Of a stretch of DNA of 64,000 bases, positions 16,238 to 59,879 are shown piece after piece. Source of the stretch: an uncultured Veillonellaceae bacterium (GTDB taxonomy: Bacteria; Bacillota; Negativicutes; Veillonellales; Veillonellaceae); NCBI GenBank assembly GCA_945867815.1, contig CAMBIX010000002.1, positions 62,001 to 126,000 on the forward strand. The letters are read 5' to 3'. Position numbers and translations under genes: made by a program. The notes beneath the pieces were generated by a model. The model was not told the DNA's origin. It did not search any database and saw nothing but the letters and a program-made list of their open reading frames with translations. Numbering within the stretch: the first letter of the stretch is position 1; every line of letters starts with the position of its first letter.

Positions 16238-17524
<1,287 letters not shown>

Positions 17525-17552
17525 CTATATATAAAACCTATAAAAAGCGTAT

Positions 17553-17620
17553 AAAAGCGCCTACTATCTTTCGGGAGCTGATACTGTTGTAAGGTTTCCT
17601 GTGAGATAGTAGGTGCTTTT
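17553..17620 (+). repeat. Structured hairpin repeat, copy 1
   Basis: The arms 17553-17569 and 17604-17620 form a 17-bp stem with one G-T pair. The 34-base apical part contains GGGAGCTGATACTGTTGTAA, a diverged copy of the family core. The right arm runs into TTTTTA, so it can also work as the eno terminator. Confidence 0.8.
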
Positions 17621-17650
17621 TATGTAGTTAGATATCATAGGTATGTAAGT

Positions 17651-17714
17651 AAGGGGCACACATCCTTTAAGAGCTGGTACTAGCGTAAGGCTCTTTACAG
17701 GATGTGTGCCCCTT
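17651..17714 (+). repeat. Structured hairpin repeat, copy 2
   Basis: The arms 17651-17666 and 17699-17714 are perfect complements over 16 bp. Inside, AAGAGC (17669-17674) pairs with GCTCTT (17690-17695) to give a second stem, capped by the 15-base loop TGGTACTAGCGTAAG. The core reads GAGCTGGTACTAGCG followed by TAAGGCTC. A TTTT run follows. Confidence 0.85.
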
Positions 17715-17747
17715 TTAATAGTTTTGTTTTTATATCATTGAAAGATG

Positions 17748-17814
17748 AAGGCATCCATATATCTCGTTAAAGAGCCTTGCGATAGTTCAAGCTCACGAGA
17801 GATGTGTGGATGCC
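17748..17814 (-). repeat. Structured hairpin repeat, copy 3, inverted
   Basis: The arms 17749-17765 and 17798-17814 pair over 17 bp with some G-T pairs. Read on the minus strand the apex is GAGCTTGAACTATCG then CAAGGCTC, the same core as copy 2 but in opposite orientation. TCCTTTTATT follows on the plus strand. Confidence 0.8.
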
Positions 17815-17955
17815 TCCTTTTATTAGCATGTAGGCCGATACGTTTTATTTTACCGTCTTTTCCTTATTAGGAAGATTGAAAGGAAGAAGAGGGCTTCTTG
17901 TAAAAGTAGTTAGTGCTGGATTTTTCAAAGGCAGAGTACAAGAAAAGGAGGTTAT

Positions 17956-19107
17956 ATGTTACCCATAGAGATAGCTCTTGACCAGTGGATTGAGGAGGCC
18001 ATAAAAAGGCGAGCCAGTGATATTCATTTTGATGCGGTTGAAGGAGGTGTATGTATACGCTATCGTATTGATGGTCTTTTGCAAGAAGAGGACCGTGTTT
18101 TGTCACCACGAGCAGACCAGGTAATTAATCGGATTAAGGTAGAAAGCAATATGGATATTGGAGAAAAACGCCTGCCTCAAGATGGCCGATGGTATTGGCA
18201 GAGGGAAGCATTGACTTGTTTATTACGTGTATCATCGCTGCCGTCCTTATATGGTGAGACGATTGTTTGCCGTATAACAGGAAATGAAGGTGCCCATAAG
18301 TCTCTTGTTGAGTTAGGCCTGCCAGCACCGTTAGTAAGTGATGTGCTAGCTGTTTTGCATCGCTCTTACGGACTCTTCCTAGTATGTGGCCCTACTGGGT
18401 CGGGTAAGACGGCGACTCTGTATGCCTTGCTTAAGACCTTACCTGTAGAGAGTGAATCAATTGTTTCTTTGGAGGATCCAGTAGAGGTGAGTTTGAAAGG
18501 TGTTGTACAGGTACCCATACAGGAGCGGGCCGGTCTTACATTTGGACAAGGGTTGCGATCTATTTTGCGGCAGGATCCAGATACGATTATGGTAGGAGAA
18601 ATTCGTGATAGGGAAACAGCACAGTTGGCGATTCAGGCGGCTTTAACTGGTCATCGCGTCTTGTCGACCATTCATACTAATCGAGCGGAAGAAGTAGAGG
18701 ATCGCTTAGTCAATATAGGGGTAGATAGGTATTTAGTAAAGGCTACCTTACAAGGAGTTCTGTCACAGCGACTCGTGCGAACATCCTGCTCACATTGTCA
18801 GCAGGGACAAACGAACAGAGTAGGTTCTCTTAGTTCTGTCGCCGAAGAGAATCGGCATACTTTAGAGTTAAGACAAGATGTGTCAGTGAGGATCAGAGAA
18901 GATACACTTTGTCCCTATTGTCATGGTAGTGGCTATTATGGACGAACAGCTGTTTTTGAAGTCTTATTGCTTCCTGAGTTAGGTAAAAGGCAGGATTTAG
19001 GTGGGTATTCGTCTTATATCCGGCAGAGTCTAGAAGAGCAGGGGCAGCAATTGGTTTTACAAGGAAGGACACGACCAGAGGAATTGGCTCGGGTAGGAAT
19101 TTTTTAA
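17956..19107 (+). CDS. pilB: Type IV pilus extension ATPase (PilB/GspE/ComGA family), short form
   Basis: A 383-residue cytoplasmic hexameric ATPase that powers pilin polymerisation. It has RRASDIHFDAVEGG (start of the N2 domain), Walker A CGPTGSGKT near residue 148, the Asp box, Walker B region IMVGEIRDRETAQLA, the His box STIHTNRAEE, and a zinc-type pair CSHCQQG plus CPYCHGSGYYGRTAVFEV at the C-terminus. Full PilB is about 560 residues; this one lacks the N-terminal MshEN/N1 domain and resembles ComGA in size. It is the first gene of the operon; AAAAGGAGG precedes the ATG. Confidence 0.9.
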   Translation: MLPIEIALDQWIEEAIKRRASDIHFDAVEGGVCIRYRIDGLLQEEDRVLSPRADQVINRIKVESNMDIGEKRLPQDGRWYWQREALTCLLRVSSLPSLYGETIVCRITGNEGAHKSLVELGLPAPLVSDVLAVLHRSYGLFLVCGPTGSGKTATLYALLKTLPVESESIVSLEDPVEVSLKGVVQVPIQERAGLTFGQGLRSILRQDPDTIMVGEIRDRETAQLAIQAALTGHRVLSTIHTNRAEEVEDRLVNIGVDRYLVKATLQGVLSQRLVRTSCSHCQQGQTNRVGSLSSVAEENRHTLELRQDVSVRIREDTLCPYCHGSGYYGRTAVFEVLLLPELGKRQDLGGYSSYIRQSLEEQGQQLVLQGRTRPEELARVGIF

Positions 19108-30937: not shown

Positions 30938-30978
30938 AAAGAAGGCGTTTCTCTGATAACAGAGGAACGCCTTCTTTT
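30938..30978. terminator. Bidirectional intrinsic terminator
   Basis: AGAAGGCGTTTCTCTG pairs with CAGAGGAACGCCTTCT across an ATAA loop (one G-T pair), with an A run before and a T run after. It serves both the macB operon (plus) and the DUF438 gene (minus). Confidence 0.85.
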
Positions 30979-30997: not shown

Positions 30998-32629
30998 CTA
31001 TTTTTGATTTACAAATTCATTCATAGCCTTAACTAAGGCTGTCATCCCCATACCACTGCGTTCAGCAGCCATGCCTAGGGTGGCTTTGCGAAGCATCATA
31101 ATGGCCATTGGCGTTTTTAACATTTTAAACATAGGATTAATGGTTGGCATGTAAGTCTTTAAGCCGTCAAATTGAGAGAAAATTTCTTTTAACTTAGTAT
31201 CAGCTGTTACTGTCATGGAACCAATTTGGTAGCTTTCATTACTGTTGGTAGCTGTGAGAGGTTCCTTAACTTGCTTAGTAGTTTTGCCAATTGTTGATGC
31301 GGTAGTATTAGTAGACGCATTTACAGAAGTGCTTGTCGTAGAGCCTTGGTTATCTTGCTTACGTTCATTATCCCAAGTTAATAGGGTACGGGATCCTTGG
31401 AGAGAACGAATATGCGTGCAGTCTTGCATCATTTCCAAGACACCACGGAAACGACCTTGTTCATCTCGAATGGCCGTGTACTTAATGTAGATGAAGGCTT
31501 CTGGCTTATTAATCCAAAATTCAGCCTCATCTTGTTCGCCACTACGGAATTTACTAATAATTTCTTCGACTAAGTGGACGCTGCGAGCTGGGTGGCAGTT
31601 CTGTACTTGGCGGCCAATTACATTGGCACTGCGAGGGAAGATGCGGTGCTCTGTATCGCTGTAGAATTTAACAAGTTCATTTTCATCCACATAGGATAAG
31701 TCGACAGGCATATGTTTAAAGAGTAAGTTAATTTGCTCTAAGGTTAATTTACCAGTCGCTACATCAAGCACATCGGTGTTTGATGATTTGGTAGATAGAT
31801 GGTATTTAGCCAGTAAGTCTTGTAGGTCGTTAGCAAAATTTTGAGGGATAGAAGGGTCATCAGAAAGAGGTGTTGGTGCTTGTCCATTTCCATTATATAA
31901 GTCTGGCGGTGTAATTAGGGAAAATCCAATTTCATGGTCACCACGGCTCATGGTAATGAAATCAGCGTCGTCAATCATTTTATAGGAAGTAGGTAATAAG
32001 ACTTCTCGTTCTTTACTGTCTAAGTCGCGCACGATATCTTCCATTTCGGCAAAAGCTTGCAAGAAGGCAGTTGGTGTATCATTTTCTAGTTTGTCATAGG
32101 CTTTACGGATAGCGTCACGTGCCTTATCATCGAAGGTCCACATGATTTTGGTTGGTCGGTCAAAGCCATAGGTTTCAAGAACGGGATACAGTTGGTTTTG
32201 CTTGCGGGATAAGTGCGTACGCCATGTATTAAATTGGTCAAATAAGCCTAACCATTGATTTTTAATGAATTCTTTTTTGCTGAGAGCGAGCCCTTGATCT
32301 AATAATTTATCCATAGCATCAATTTCTAACGCATAGGCATGAAGCGGATGATTTGATGGATAATCGTAAGGGGTACGTACGAGGATGCCGTCAAATAGTT
32401 CTAGTAAGTCGCTCATACGGTCAGTAACTTCTTCGTCCGTGTACTTGCCCTTTAATTGTTGTTCACCATAGGCAAATTCATCAGGTGTACAGGTACCGAT
32501 TTTTTCCTTTAATAATTGGTGTGCTTTTTCTAAGGAATAGGTACCATTAAGGTACTTGTCTTTGATATCTACCATGGTAGCAAGGCGTTCTTTGTCGGTA
32601 ATGGATAAGGCTGTTTCTAAGTTCTTCAT
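30998..32629 (-). CDS. DUF438-hemerythrin-PAS-DUF1858 protein
   Basis: A 543-residue soluble protein on the minus strand, the only one in the window. In order: DUF438 (about residues 20-95), a hemerythrin-like helical region (about 105-240, with NHPLHAYALEID and WRTHLSRKQNQLYPVL), a PAS domain (about 320-420) with GRQVQNCHPARSVHLVEEII and FWINKPEAFIYIKYTAI, a Ser/Thr/Asn-rich linker of about 50 residues, and DUF1858 (about 470-543). Such proteins are inferred to sense redox or gases; the target is unknown. Start ATG at 32629 follows GAAGGAGA on the minus strand; an upstream in-frame ATG is less likely. Confidence 0.85.
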   Translation of the reverse strand: MKNLETALSITDKERLATMVDIKDKYLNGTYSLEKAHQLLKEKIGTCTPDEFAYGEQQLKGKYTDEEVTDRMSDLLELFDGILVRTPYDYPSNHPLHAYALEIDAMDKLLDQGLALSKKEFIKNQWLGLFDQFNTWRTHLSRKQNQLYPVLETYGFDRPTKIMWTFDDKARDAIRKAYDKLENDTPTAFLQAFAEMEDIVRDLDSKEREVLLPTSYKMIDDADFITMSRGDHEIGFSLITPPDLYNGNGQAPTPLSDDPSIPQNFANDLQDLLAKYHLSTKSSNTDVLDVATGKLTLEQINLLFKHMPVDLSYVDENELVKFYSDTEHRIFPRSANVIGRQVQNCHPARSVHLVEEIISKFRSGEQDEAEFWINKPEAFIYIKYTAIRDEQGRFRGVLEMMQDCTHIRSLQGSRTLLTWDNERKQDNQGSTTSTSVNASTNTTASTIGKTTKQVKEPLTATNSNESYQIGSMTVTADTKLKEIFSQFDGLKTYMPTINPMFKMLKTPMAIMMLRKATLGMAAERSGMGMTALVKAMNEFVNQK

Positions 32630-33128
32630 CTTAAGTCTCCTTCTTTCATTCATATAGAACATGCATAAGTATAGTTGTTGATAATTAATTAATTTTTAAA
32701 GCAAATTCTAAGCAAGCCTTGATACTTGTGTGGCCTAGCTTATTTGATTTGTCCTACTAATTAATCATATAGTTTGCTAATGATTAGGATGATTAGTTGG
32801 TTTCTTCTACTTACTTTTATAGCAAGTAGTAACTATGCTATTAGAATATAGTAAATGAAATTTATTTTCAGTAGCTAGGGCGACATAATTTTTATCTTAT
32901 AAAATGAATTCTTTTATTTTATAAGGACATACATATGTCTATTTTCTTATATATAGTAGAGGCAGAAATAGAATTTCTTCTTAGAAGGAAGGCAATGGCA
33001 ATTAGTAAATACCGATTTATGATTGCGTACAATAGATGCTGATAGTCTATGAATCTAGCGGTTGTATGGTGTCTTGCCTTATAAGGTAAGGAAAATGTCT
33101 CGTTATTAAAAGAAGGAGTGTTTAACCT
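32630..33128. other. Divergent intergenic region with inverted repeats
   Basis: About 500 bases without a supported gene. It must hold the minus-strand promoter of the DUF438 gene and a plus-strand promoter for 33129. CTTATAAAAT (32896-32905) and ATTTTATAAG (32916-32925) form a perfect 10-bp inverted repeat with a 10-base loop. CCTTATAAGG (33077-33086) is a perfect 10-base palindrome. Either could be an operator. Confidence 0.6.
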
Positions 33129-58647: not shown

Positions 58648-59634
58648 ATGAAAATTTTAGTAGCTGGAGGCGCTGGTTATATAGGAAGCCATACGGTACG
58701 AGCTTTAGTAAAGGCAGGGCATACTCCTGTTGTGTTGGATAATTTGTCTCATGGTCATCGTGGGGCTGTGCCAGAAGGCGTTTTATTTAAACAGGCTAAT
58801 ATTGAGGATTCGGATGTATCGGCTTGGATGCGTCAAGAAGGTATTGAAGGTATGATGCACTTTGCCGCGTCCATTGAGGTGGGCGAGTCAATGAAAAATC
58901 CAGCTCTTTATTATAAGAATAATGTGGTTGGCTCTTATCATTTAATTGAAGCCGCTCGGCAGGCTGGTGTTAAGTACGTTGTTTTTTCTTCAACAGCTGC
59001 TGTTTATGGGGAACCAGACCAGGTACCGATTGATGAAGATGCTAAGCAGGTACCAACAAATGTGTATGGTCGCACGAAGTTAATGATTGAAACAATGCTA
59101 AAGGATTACAGTGATATTTACGGTATGAAATATATTGCCTTGCGGTATTTTAATGCGTCAGGTGCGGATGCATCAGGTGAAATTGGTGAAGATCATCATC
59201 CGGAAACACATTTAATCCCTTTAGTATTACAAGCAGCTGCGGGAAAGCGCAAGTCAATCACTATTTTTGGCACCGATTATCCGACACCAGATGGAACTTG
59301 TGTGCGTGATTACATTCATGTAACTGATTTGGCAGATGCTCATGTATTAGCTATGAACTATTTGGCTAATGGTGGACAGTCTCAGTATTTTAACTTGGGC
59401 AGTGGTAAGGGCTTTAGTGTAAAAGAGATTGTAGAAGCAGCTAAAAAAGTGACGGGAATTGATTTTTCGGTGGAATATGGTACTCGTCGTGCAGGCGATC
59501 CAGGAACTTTAGTGGCTTCGTCAGATAAGATTAAGCGGATTTTAGGATGGAATCCGACGCATAGTACGGTGGAACAGGTGATTGGGGATGCATGGAAGTG
59601 GCATCAGACGCATCCACAGGGGTATAACGATTAA
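58648..59634 (+). CDS. galE: UDP-glucose 4-epimerase
   Basis: A 328-residue short-chain dehydrogenase-type epimerase that interconverts UDP-glucose and UDP-galactose. NAD loop GGAGYIGSHTVRAL, FAASIEVGESM, FSSTAAVYG and the Tyr-Lys pair in VYGRTKLMIE are present, with RYFNASGAD and the C-terminal GDPGTLVASSDKI. AGAAGGAG precedes the ATG. No other sugar nucleotide genes are adjacent. Confidence 0.94.
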   Translation: MKILVAGGAGYIGSHTVRALVKAGHTPVVLDNLSHGHRGAVPEGVLFKQANIEDSDVSAWMRQEGIEGMMHFAASIEVGESMKNPALYYKNNVVGSYHLIEAARQAGVKYVVFSSTAAVYGEPDQVPIDEDAKQVPTNVYGRTKLMIETMLKDYSDIYGMKYIALRYFNASGADASGEIGEDHHPETHLIPLVLQAAAGKRKSITIFGTDYPTPDGTCVRDYIHVTDLADAHVLAMNYLANGGQSQYFNLGSGKGFSVKEIVEAAKKVTGIDFSVEYGTRRAGDPGTLVASSDKIKRILGWNPTHSTVEQVIGDAWKWHQTHPQGYND

Positions 59635-59670
59635 TATTCTTTGCTGTTCTTTTAGTTTGTCTTGAGGGCG

Positions 59671-59744
59671 GAAGCACCCTACGCATTCTCTCGGGAGCTG
59701 GTCACCTTCGGCAAAGGCTCCCTACGAGAATGGTAGGATGCTTC
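59671..59744 (+). repeat. Structured hairpin repeat, copy 4
   Basis: The outer arms GAAGCACCCTACGCATTCTC and GAGAATGGTAGGATGCTTC pair with few interruptions. Inside, GGGAGC (59693-59698) pairs with GCTCCC (59717-59722). The core GAGCTGGTCACCTTCGGCAA then AGGCTC matches that of the eno-downstream copies, with a 3-base insertion. There is no T run here, so termination is not its common function. Confidence 0.8.
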
Positions 59745-59879
59745 GTGATATAGAGGAAAAAGAAAGGATAAGTAGCTTAGTTCTAGGCTGGCGTTAATCG
59801 TTATAGAAGGAGGTGGATGCCTTCTGATATAGGCCGGGCGGAAGTGTGTCTTGGTAGGATGCTTCGTGACATAGAGGCA
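59731..59879 (+). repeat. Partial copies of the hairpin repeat arm
   Basis: TGGTAGGATGCTTCGTGATA (59731-59750, continuing TAGAGG) is the right arm of copy 4 plus flank; it recurs at 59852-59877 with one change (GTGACA). A more diverged piece, GGTGGATGCCTTCTGATATA, lies at 59812-59831. The fragments lack the conserved core. Confidence 0.75.

Follow-up and report, generated by a model that had tools for sequence, protein, structure and literature searches.

A lineage-restricted family of interspersed hairpins with a conserved tip behind genes of a Veillonellaceae bacterium

The stretch of DNA analyzed here, called the window, is 64,000 nucleotides long and comes from an uncultured Veillonellaceae bacterium. 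Three long hairpins stand in a row behind the enolase gene eno, and a fourth lies behind galE. Their stems differ in sequence yet pair, and their apices resemble one another. The question is what such hairpins are: ordinary terminators, a mobile palindromic repeat, or a structure that is recognized by its apex.

The hairpins and their covariation

A sequence-only reading of the window had placed four hairpins, and all four are borne out (Table 1). Covariance model R1 matched exactly these copies in the window, and compared with shuffled sequence, copies 1-4 fold with z = -7.7, -8.1, -6.6, and -4.2. R1 was built from 30 family copies that include the four. Because the window copies trained the model, its 85 genome-wide matches and the absence of the family from relatives are the more independent evidence.

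Table 1. Features of the window. Copies were scored with covariance model R1, whose E-values come from a short calibration; genes are open reading frames without curated annotation.
Feature	Position	Strand	Outer stem	Core	Evidence
Copy 1, subtype A	17549..17623	+	17553-17576 / 17597-17620	17575-17597, GAGCTGATACTGTTGTAAGGTTT	62.3 bits, E 3.5e-17
Copy 2, subtype A	17645..17719	+	17651-17670 / 17695-17714	17671-17693, GAGCTGGTACTAGCGTAAGGCTC	75.9 bits, E 1.1e-21
Copy 3, subtype A, inverted	17745..17820	-	17749-17765 / 17799-17815	17772-17794, - strand, GAGCTTGAACTATCGCAAGGCTC	71.0 bits, E 4.9e-20
Copy 4, subtype B	59669..59746	+		59695-59720, GAGCTGGTCACCTTCGGCAAAGGCTC	45.3 bits, E 1.5e-11
Subtype-B remnant, internally deleted, in tandem behind copy 4	59834..59877 (about)	+			fifth element of the window
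eno, enolase; copies 1-3 at its 3' end	16241..17524	+			TIGR01060, 711 bits
galE, UDP-glucose 4-epimerase; copy 4 at its 3' end	58648..59634	+			TIGR01179, 446 bits
ORF, 383 aa, next gene downstream of the eno cluster	17956..19107	+			open reading frame

Copies 1 to 3 are members of subtype A. The eno stop codon is 25 nt upstream of copy 1, which has a T-rich 3' edge and one G-T pair (core strand) in its outer stem. The arms of copy 2 are 95% complementary. Copy 3 is a rare antisense member, located inside the three-copy cluster. The gene downstream of this cluster, judged by eye, looks like a type II secretion or type IV pilus ATPase. The sequence-only reading had quoted the shared core as GAGCTGGTACTAGCG followed by TAAGGCTC; this is exact in copy 2, but copies 1 and 3 differ from it in several bases and copy 4 belongs to another subtype.

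Copy 4 is a subtype-B element, with the galE stop codon 35 nt upstream. It is flanked by GGGCGGAAGC and GCTTCGTGATATAGAGG and has no T-run. Its tip is a longer stem-loop, CUGGU-CACCUUCGGC-AAAGG, and it has the CUGRU/WAGG internal loop and the lower portion in common with subtype A. The remnant behind it reads GGGCGGAAG, a few bases, and then GGTAGGATGCTTCGTGACATAGAGG, with the tip gone. It has a 25-nt stretch that is identical to copy 4 except for one base, where chance predicts 0 such matches. The remnant shows that tips can be lost in place.

The outer stem of the family is mostly 15-20 bp long, and in subtype A its edges are A-rich on the 5' side and T-rich on the 3' side. Inside it lies an asymmetric loop, in which 5' UCG(C) stands opposite 3' UUUAAC, CUUGC, or CUACG. 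A stem of 4-5 bp, commonly GAGC/GCUC, separates this loop from a second, upper one; it also occurs as the compensatory variants GUGC/GCAC and AAGC/GCUU. The upper asymmetric loop, CUGRU/WAGG, is conserved. Above it is a variable apical stem-loop, e.g., ACUANCGU, ACUUCGU, or UACCUUCGGUA. The internal loops do not appear to fit the K-turn, loop E, or the 11-nt tetraloop receptor.

The arms covary. Among 30 aligned copies, 158 two-sided pair changes were observed; shuffles gave 58.7, and controls with a slid partner gave 75 at most. Of the 23 pairs, 17 vary on both sides in some copies. Pairwise identity of the subtype-A arms is about 0.28-0.36 (0.42 at one outer position), close to the background of 0.256, while the nucleotides in and beside the tip are strongly conserved, nearly invariant. 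The earlier claim that the stems differ but still pair is thus upheld, and there is strong support for a structured family whose stems vary but pair and whose tip is constant.

In subtype B the conserved flanks, AGTATGGAAGC and GCTTCGTGATATAGTGC, are longer. This subtype lacks a clean T-run as well, and for these reasons it is not a classical terminator. Within the TCG/CTTGC group, the sequence beyond the stem is also shared (RCGAAAAG...CTTTTCTYAAAT). Some copies have a damaged or absent tip, so the tip is dispensable at some sites. In weak matches such as L109:4001-4026 and L114:4001-4066, the apical stem-loop is deleted or swapped (GAGCTAGATGCTC in L114) and the lower part is kept.

The acting strand received no clear answer from a wobble test in either genus that carries the family. 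Stems of the own genome hold 42 G-U against 28 A-C mismatches (P = 0.12), and those of the sister genus hold 17 G-U against 59 A-C. The latter excess apparently comes largely from one shared position, and it is no argument for selection on the sense RNA alone.

Two further features of the window were observed. At 30938-30977, a terminator-like hairpin of the ordinary kind (18 bp, AAAGAAGGCGTTTCTCTG, 4-nt loop) lacks the conserved tip and is thus a natural control for the family. A 27-nt A+T-rich imperfect palindrome with a 4-nt spacer lies at 32882-32939, near the 5' side of the inverted ORF 30998-32662 (-), and is possibly an operator.

Distribution and behavior as a repeat

In the own genome, R1 gives 85 matches at E <= 1, a count bounded, like those of the other models below, by the first pass of the search and including two marginal matches at its end. 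They occupy about 64 sites, 15 of which hold 2-4 copies. The core pattern with at most 3 mismatches occurs in 43 places, compared with 2 for the reversed-pattern control.

A related form is found in the six species of a sister genus, g2, where the tip is CAAACUGAU, a short apical loop, and UAGGUUUG. Model R2, made for this form, gives 90-129 matches per genome; the palindrome is often matched on both strands, and the distinct copies number about half. With a joint model, R3, each of seven genomes, namely the own genome and the six of g2, yields 36-69 matches, and 54 other genomes of the order yield zero. Across the class, 7 of 380 Negativicutes genomes are positive, all from these two genera, and R3 has no match in the other 373. 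The core pattern within 2 mismatches was found in 0 of 39 relatives. A tree of the SMC protein groups the own genome with g2 (support 95/97, with a long-branch warning), although eno alone has higher raw identity to g3 and g4 than to g2. Because of the SMC grouping, a single gain in the common ancestor of the own genome and g2 would be the simplest history.

The family has no name in the sources searched, as had been proposed. Among 4227 Rfam families, none matched the window above its gathering threshold, and the matches below it look like chance. A literature search on Veillonella relatives returned no paper that describes the hairpins. In a named genome collection, which possibly leaves the own genome and near relatives outside, the exact core has two isolated matches only, in a Beijerinckiaceae genome and a Mediterraneibacter MAG; both were judged to be chance, as about 7 are expected for a pattern of that length by our own estimate. 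A phage-borne repeat was considered and rejected, the exact core patterns of both genera being absent from viral contigs. The sequence-only reading had suggested a covariance search of this genome and its relatives and had named three outcomes that would speak against a family: no further copies, chance likeness of G/C-rich hairpins, or identity to a described repeat. The searches above yielded none of the three.

Tandem copies are common, and dispersed copies occur too. The g2 unit of about 143 bp lies inside a palindrome of about 190 bp. Units of the sister genus are long palindromes with outer arms GTAGCCTGTGGCGTT and AACGCCACAAAGGCT; their stems and flanks are shared between copies, and a GTAG word occurs in the 3' flank, away from the hairpin base. 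At three sites compared across sister species, the site is shared and the number of units differs. In six sister species, the same genes enclose tandem arrays of about 143 bp (L130:14215-14487; L155, L157), with different unit numbers and contig ends often inside them.

Elements also bound a segment of about 2.7 kb that contains repeated stretches of genes (L130:1829-6419 against L152 and L154). G007, G001, and G004 have this segment; G016 and G013 lack it. Loss of this inter-array segment with its genes in G013 and G016 would be expected from recombination between arrays.

Between the two genera, few sites are shared. When orthologs of the own genome and G007 were compared, the element was present in both members of 4 of 79 pairs, a slight excess over the 1.4 expected (P = 0.026). 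As so few pairs carry it in both, the majority of sites have turned over since the two genera diverged. A search of the own genome for the Y1 (RAYT) transposase, PF01797, gave 0 matches, and control genomes were positive.

Position at gene ends

Members of the family are found mostly behind genes, in the sense direction, with gene ends taken from open reading frames rather than from a curated annotation. In the own genome, 76 of 85 copies are downstream of a gene in this orientation, mostly 0-60 nt past the stop codon. At single-copy sites the figure is 45 of 49, with a median of 29 nt after the stop codon. Single-copy sites between codirectional genes hold 25 sense and 2 antisense copies (P = 5.6e-6, somewhat overstated, as are the other P values here, since copies are kin by descent). 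The sister-genus genome G007 has 49 sense copies out of 54, and between codirectional genes there are 32 sense and 1 antisense. Both orientations do occur, as the sequence-only reading had pointed out, but the antisense one is exceptional, and several antisense copies sit in clusters, e.g., copy 3. That reading missed how strong the bias toward sense is and that copies sit at gene 3' ends; both findings favor a role at the level of the transcript.

The genes that bear an element are diverse and of unrelated function. They include eno, galE, galU, purB, hydG, ornithine carbamoyltransferase, an aldolase, and transporters. Behind them, copies of subtype A and of the sister genus have the stem and following T-rich tract of an intrinsic terminator. 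Counted over the 10 nt that straddle the stem's 3' edge, T averages 5.5 in subtype A and 6.0 in the sister genus.

Element-bearing gene ends seldom have a separate simple terminator. The scan used allows loops of at most 8 and therefore misses the hairpins of the family themselves. In G007, a simple terminator was found at 0 of 22 element-bearing ends, compared with 36 of 103 other ends (P = 4e-4). In G000 the counts are 4 of 50 and 19 of 124 (P = 0.23), which is non-significant alone. Pooled, they are 4 of 72 and 55 of 227 (P = 2.8e-4).

The 3' end of eno can be compared between genera. In the g2 and g4 relatives it has an ordinary short terminator and in the g3 relative a longer hairpin, all without the element; in the own genome the elements are present and an ordinary terminator was not found. 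The sequence of the site in relatives is too diverged for element boundaries to show. The g3 hairpin (L159) is long with a large loop (AACCTTTGAGAAAAGAGCTGTTAAGCG...TTTTTCTCGAAGGTTTTTTT), and none of the models matches it. Genus g3 may use another design of long terminator.

Explanations and meaning

The nearest known kinds are the pneumococcal SPRITE, REP/BIME repeats, and terminator-embedded aptamers. SPRITE is the closest in kind. It is likewise interspersed and lineage-restricted, has an 18 bp stem with a T-rich tract near gene 3' ends, and is a proposed terminator (PMC3049150). Subtype A shares these features, as an interspersed long-stem hairpin with a T-rich 3' side near gene 3' ends; subtype B does so without the clean T-run. 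SPRITE is defined by a sequence HMM, whereas in subtype A the stem is unconserved and the apical double internal loop is conserved. It is also reported to be enriched between convergent genes, while here the sense bias holds between codirectional genes too. The comparison is one of kind, and the host organisms belong to different classes.

REP/BIME repeats are high-copy extragenic palindromes that form clusters and inverted pairs and have proposed roles in termination and mRNA stabilization. REP families, which go with the RAYT transposase, are defined by a 5-13 bp stem together with GTAG or CGTC as a tag at one end (PMC3733652). The present stems are mostly longer, and the copies of the own genome have no common GTAG/CGTC tag. 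With neither the short tagged hairpin nor the Y1 transposase found there, membership in REP/RAYT was rejected. The HMP-PP (thiS) and guanidine-IV riboswitches and the HRC-8-4 motif are terminator-embedded aptamers (PMC8632094, PMC6478431). These control particular operons, whereas here one genome repeats the element at about 64 sites behind unrelated genes. A terminator-embedded riboswitch would stand ahead of the genes that it regulates in a single pathway; this identity was rejected, since the copies follow unrelated genes. BOX, RUP, ERIC, and NEMIS/Correia are also small foldable interspersed repeats, transcribed in mRNA and in some cases processed by RNase (PMC3049150). They are recognized by conserved terminal repeats or modules (PMC3049150), a distinction drawn from their descriptions rather than from sequence.

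The best explanation is a lineage-specific interspersed repeat that acts at the RNA level as an mRNA 3'-end or terminator hairpin, with a probability of about 0.6. The sense orientation behind genes, the replacement of terminators, and the covariation suggest that the element works in the transcript. That the tip is fixed while the stems are near random suggests in turn that the tip is recognized, probably by a trans-acting factor. The long stem would form as RNA polymerase leaves the gene, would cause or aid termination, and may shield the 3' end from exonucleases. Its sequence would drift freely because pairing alone would matter. The double internal loop of the tip would be kept fixed through recognition by the factor, most likely a protein, that reads it either in RNA (in 3'-end processing, stability, or termination control) or during the spread of copies. 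Copies multiply by local tandem duplication, as array sizes that differ among sister species show, and would also be dispersed to new sites.

Several other explanations share part of this evidence. The most substantial is a parasitic, MITE-like palindromic repeat whose tip, as a DNA hairpin or cruciform, is recognized by a transposase in trans, the 3'-end position reflecting only where insertion is tolerated. There is a published precedent, as pneumococcal SPRITE, BOX, and RUP have been argued to be parasites tolerated behind genes (PMC3049150). The dispersed and tandem copies, the array sizes that vary between sister species, the long palindromic units with outer arms, the turnover of most sites, and the flanks common within subtypes all suit such a repeat. 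Tolerance alone, however, does not lead one to expect a strong sense bias between codirectional genes for a near-palindrome, and the subtype-A stems, almost unrelated yet paired, are unlike young MITE copies. A Y1/REP-type transposase is absent from the own genome, in a search that covered the Y1 family only. A target-site duplication or clean empty site was not demonstrated, the eno site being too diverged and the sister-species sites compared being few. On balance this explanation is unlikely, if a serious contender. It is less probable still that an apical cassette of about 38 nt (CCCUCGCGAGCUGGU...AAGGCUCUUUAACGGG) entered the loops of intrinsic terminators that were already present and unrelated to one another, in which case the outer stems would never have had a common origin. 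Near-random subtype-A stems with A/T-rich, terminator-like edges agree with this, as do the long-stem terminators of varied sequence in relatives (g3/g4 loci). The subtypes nevertheless share sequence outside the stem (the TCG/CTTGC group and the subtype-B flanks), sister-genus copies have stems and flanks in common, and at eno, the single site examined, no orthologous tip-less terminator with the same stem was found.

Ordinary intrinsic terminators whose tips are alike by coincidence or composition would account for the shape and position, and long-stem terminators do occur in related genera. The tip is conserved where the stems vary, though, and chance and composition are refuted by the reversed-pattern control and by the genomes of relatives and of the class; this reading can practically be set aside. 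Equally improbable are DNA-uptake sequences that pair up as terminators, like those of Neisseria and Haemophilus. Those would also be lineage-specific, repeated, and terminator-like, but there are only about 85 copies per 2 Mb here, and conservation falls on an asymmetric tip, not on the two arms.

The sequence-only reading had offered two interpretations of the family, and each has gained some support. A palindromic repeat, putatively mobile, is in line with the dispersed and tandem copies, the shared subtype flanks, and the few sites common with the sister genus. A hairpin putatively recognized by its apex is in line with the covariation, the sense orientation, and the position at gene 3' ends. 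The repeat and the RNA 3'-end readings are compatible: the element may spread and be kept for supplying terminators. A more far-reaching version is tentative. It holds that the tips form a genome-wide terminator-embedded recognition element, in which dozens of unlinked mRNAs in two genera bind one factor, protein or ligand-responsive. This would possibly constitute a global 3'-end regulon in which the tip alone is read and the stem may take any sequence that pairs.

Bacterial interspersed palindromes are usually recognized by conserved arms or ends. Subtype A has near-random arms and a fixed tip, and arms that have drifted under pairing beside such a tip are the signature of a recognized structure. 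If the tip binds a factor, the family would offer a simple means of controlling dozens of mRNA 3' ends together, with the two genera as natural replicates for testing it. If the element is instead a parasite, it would be a repeat that survives by providing terminators.
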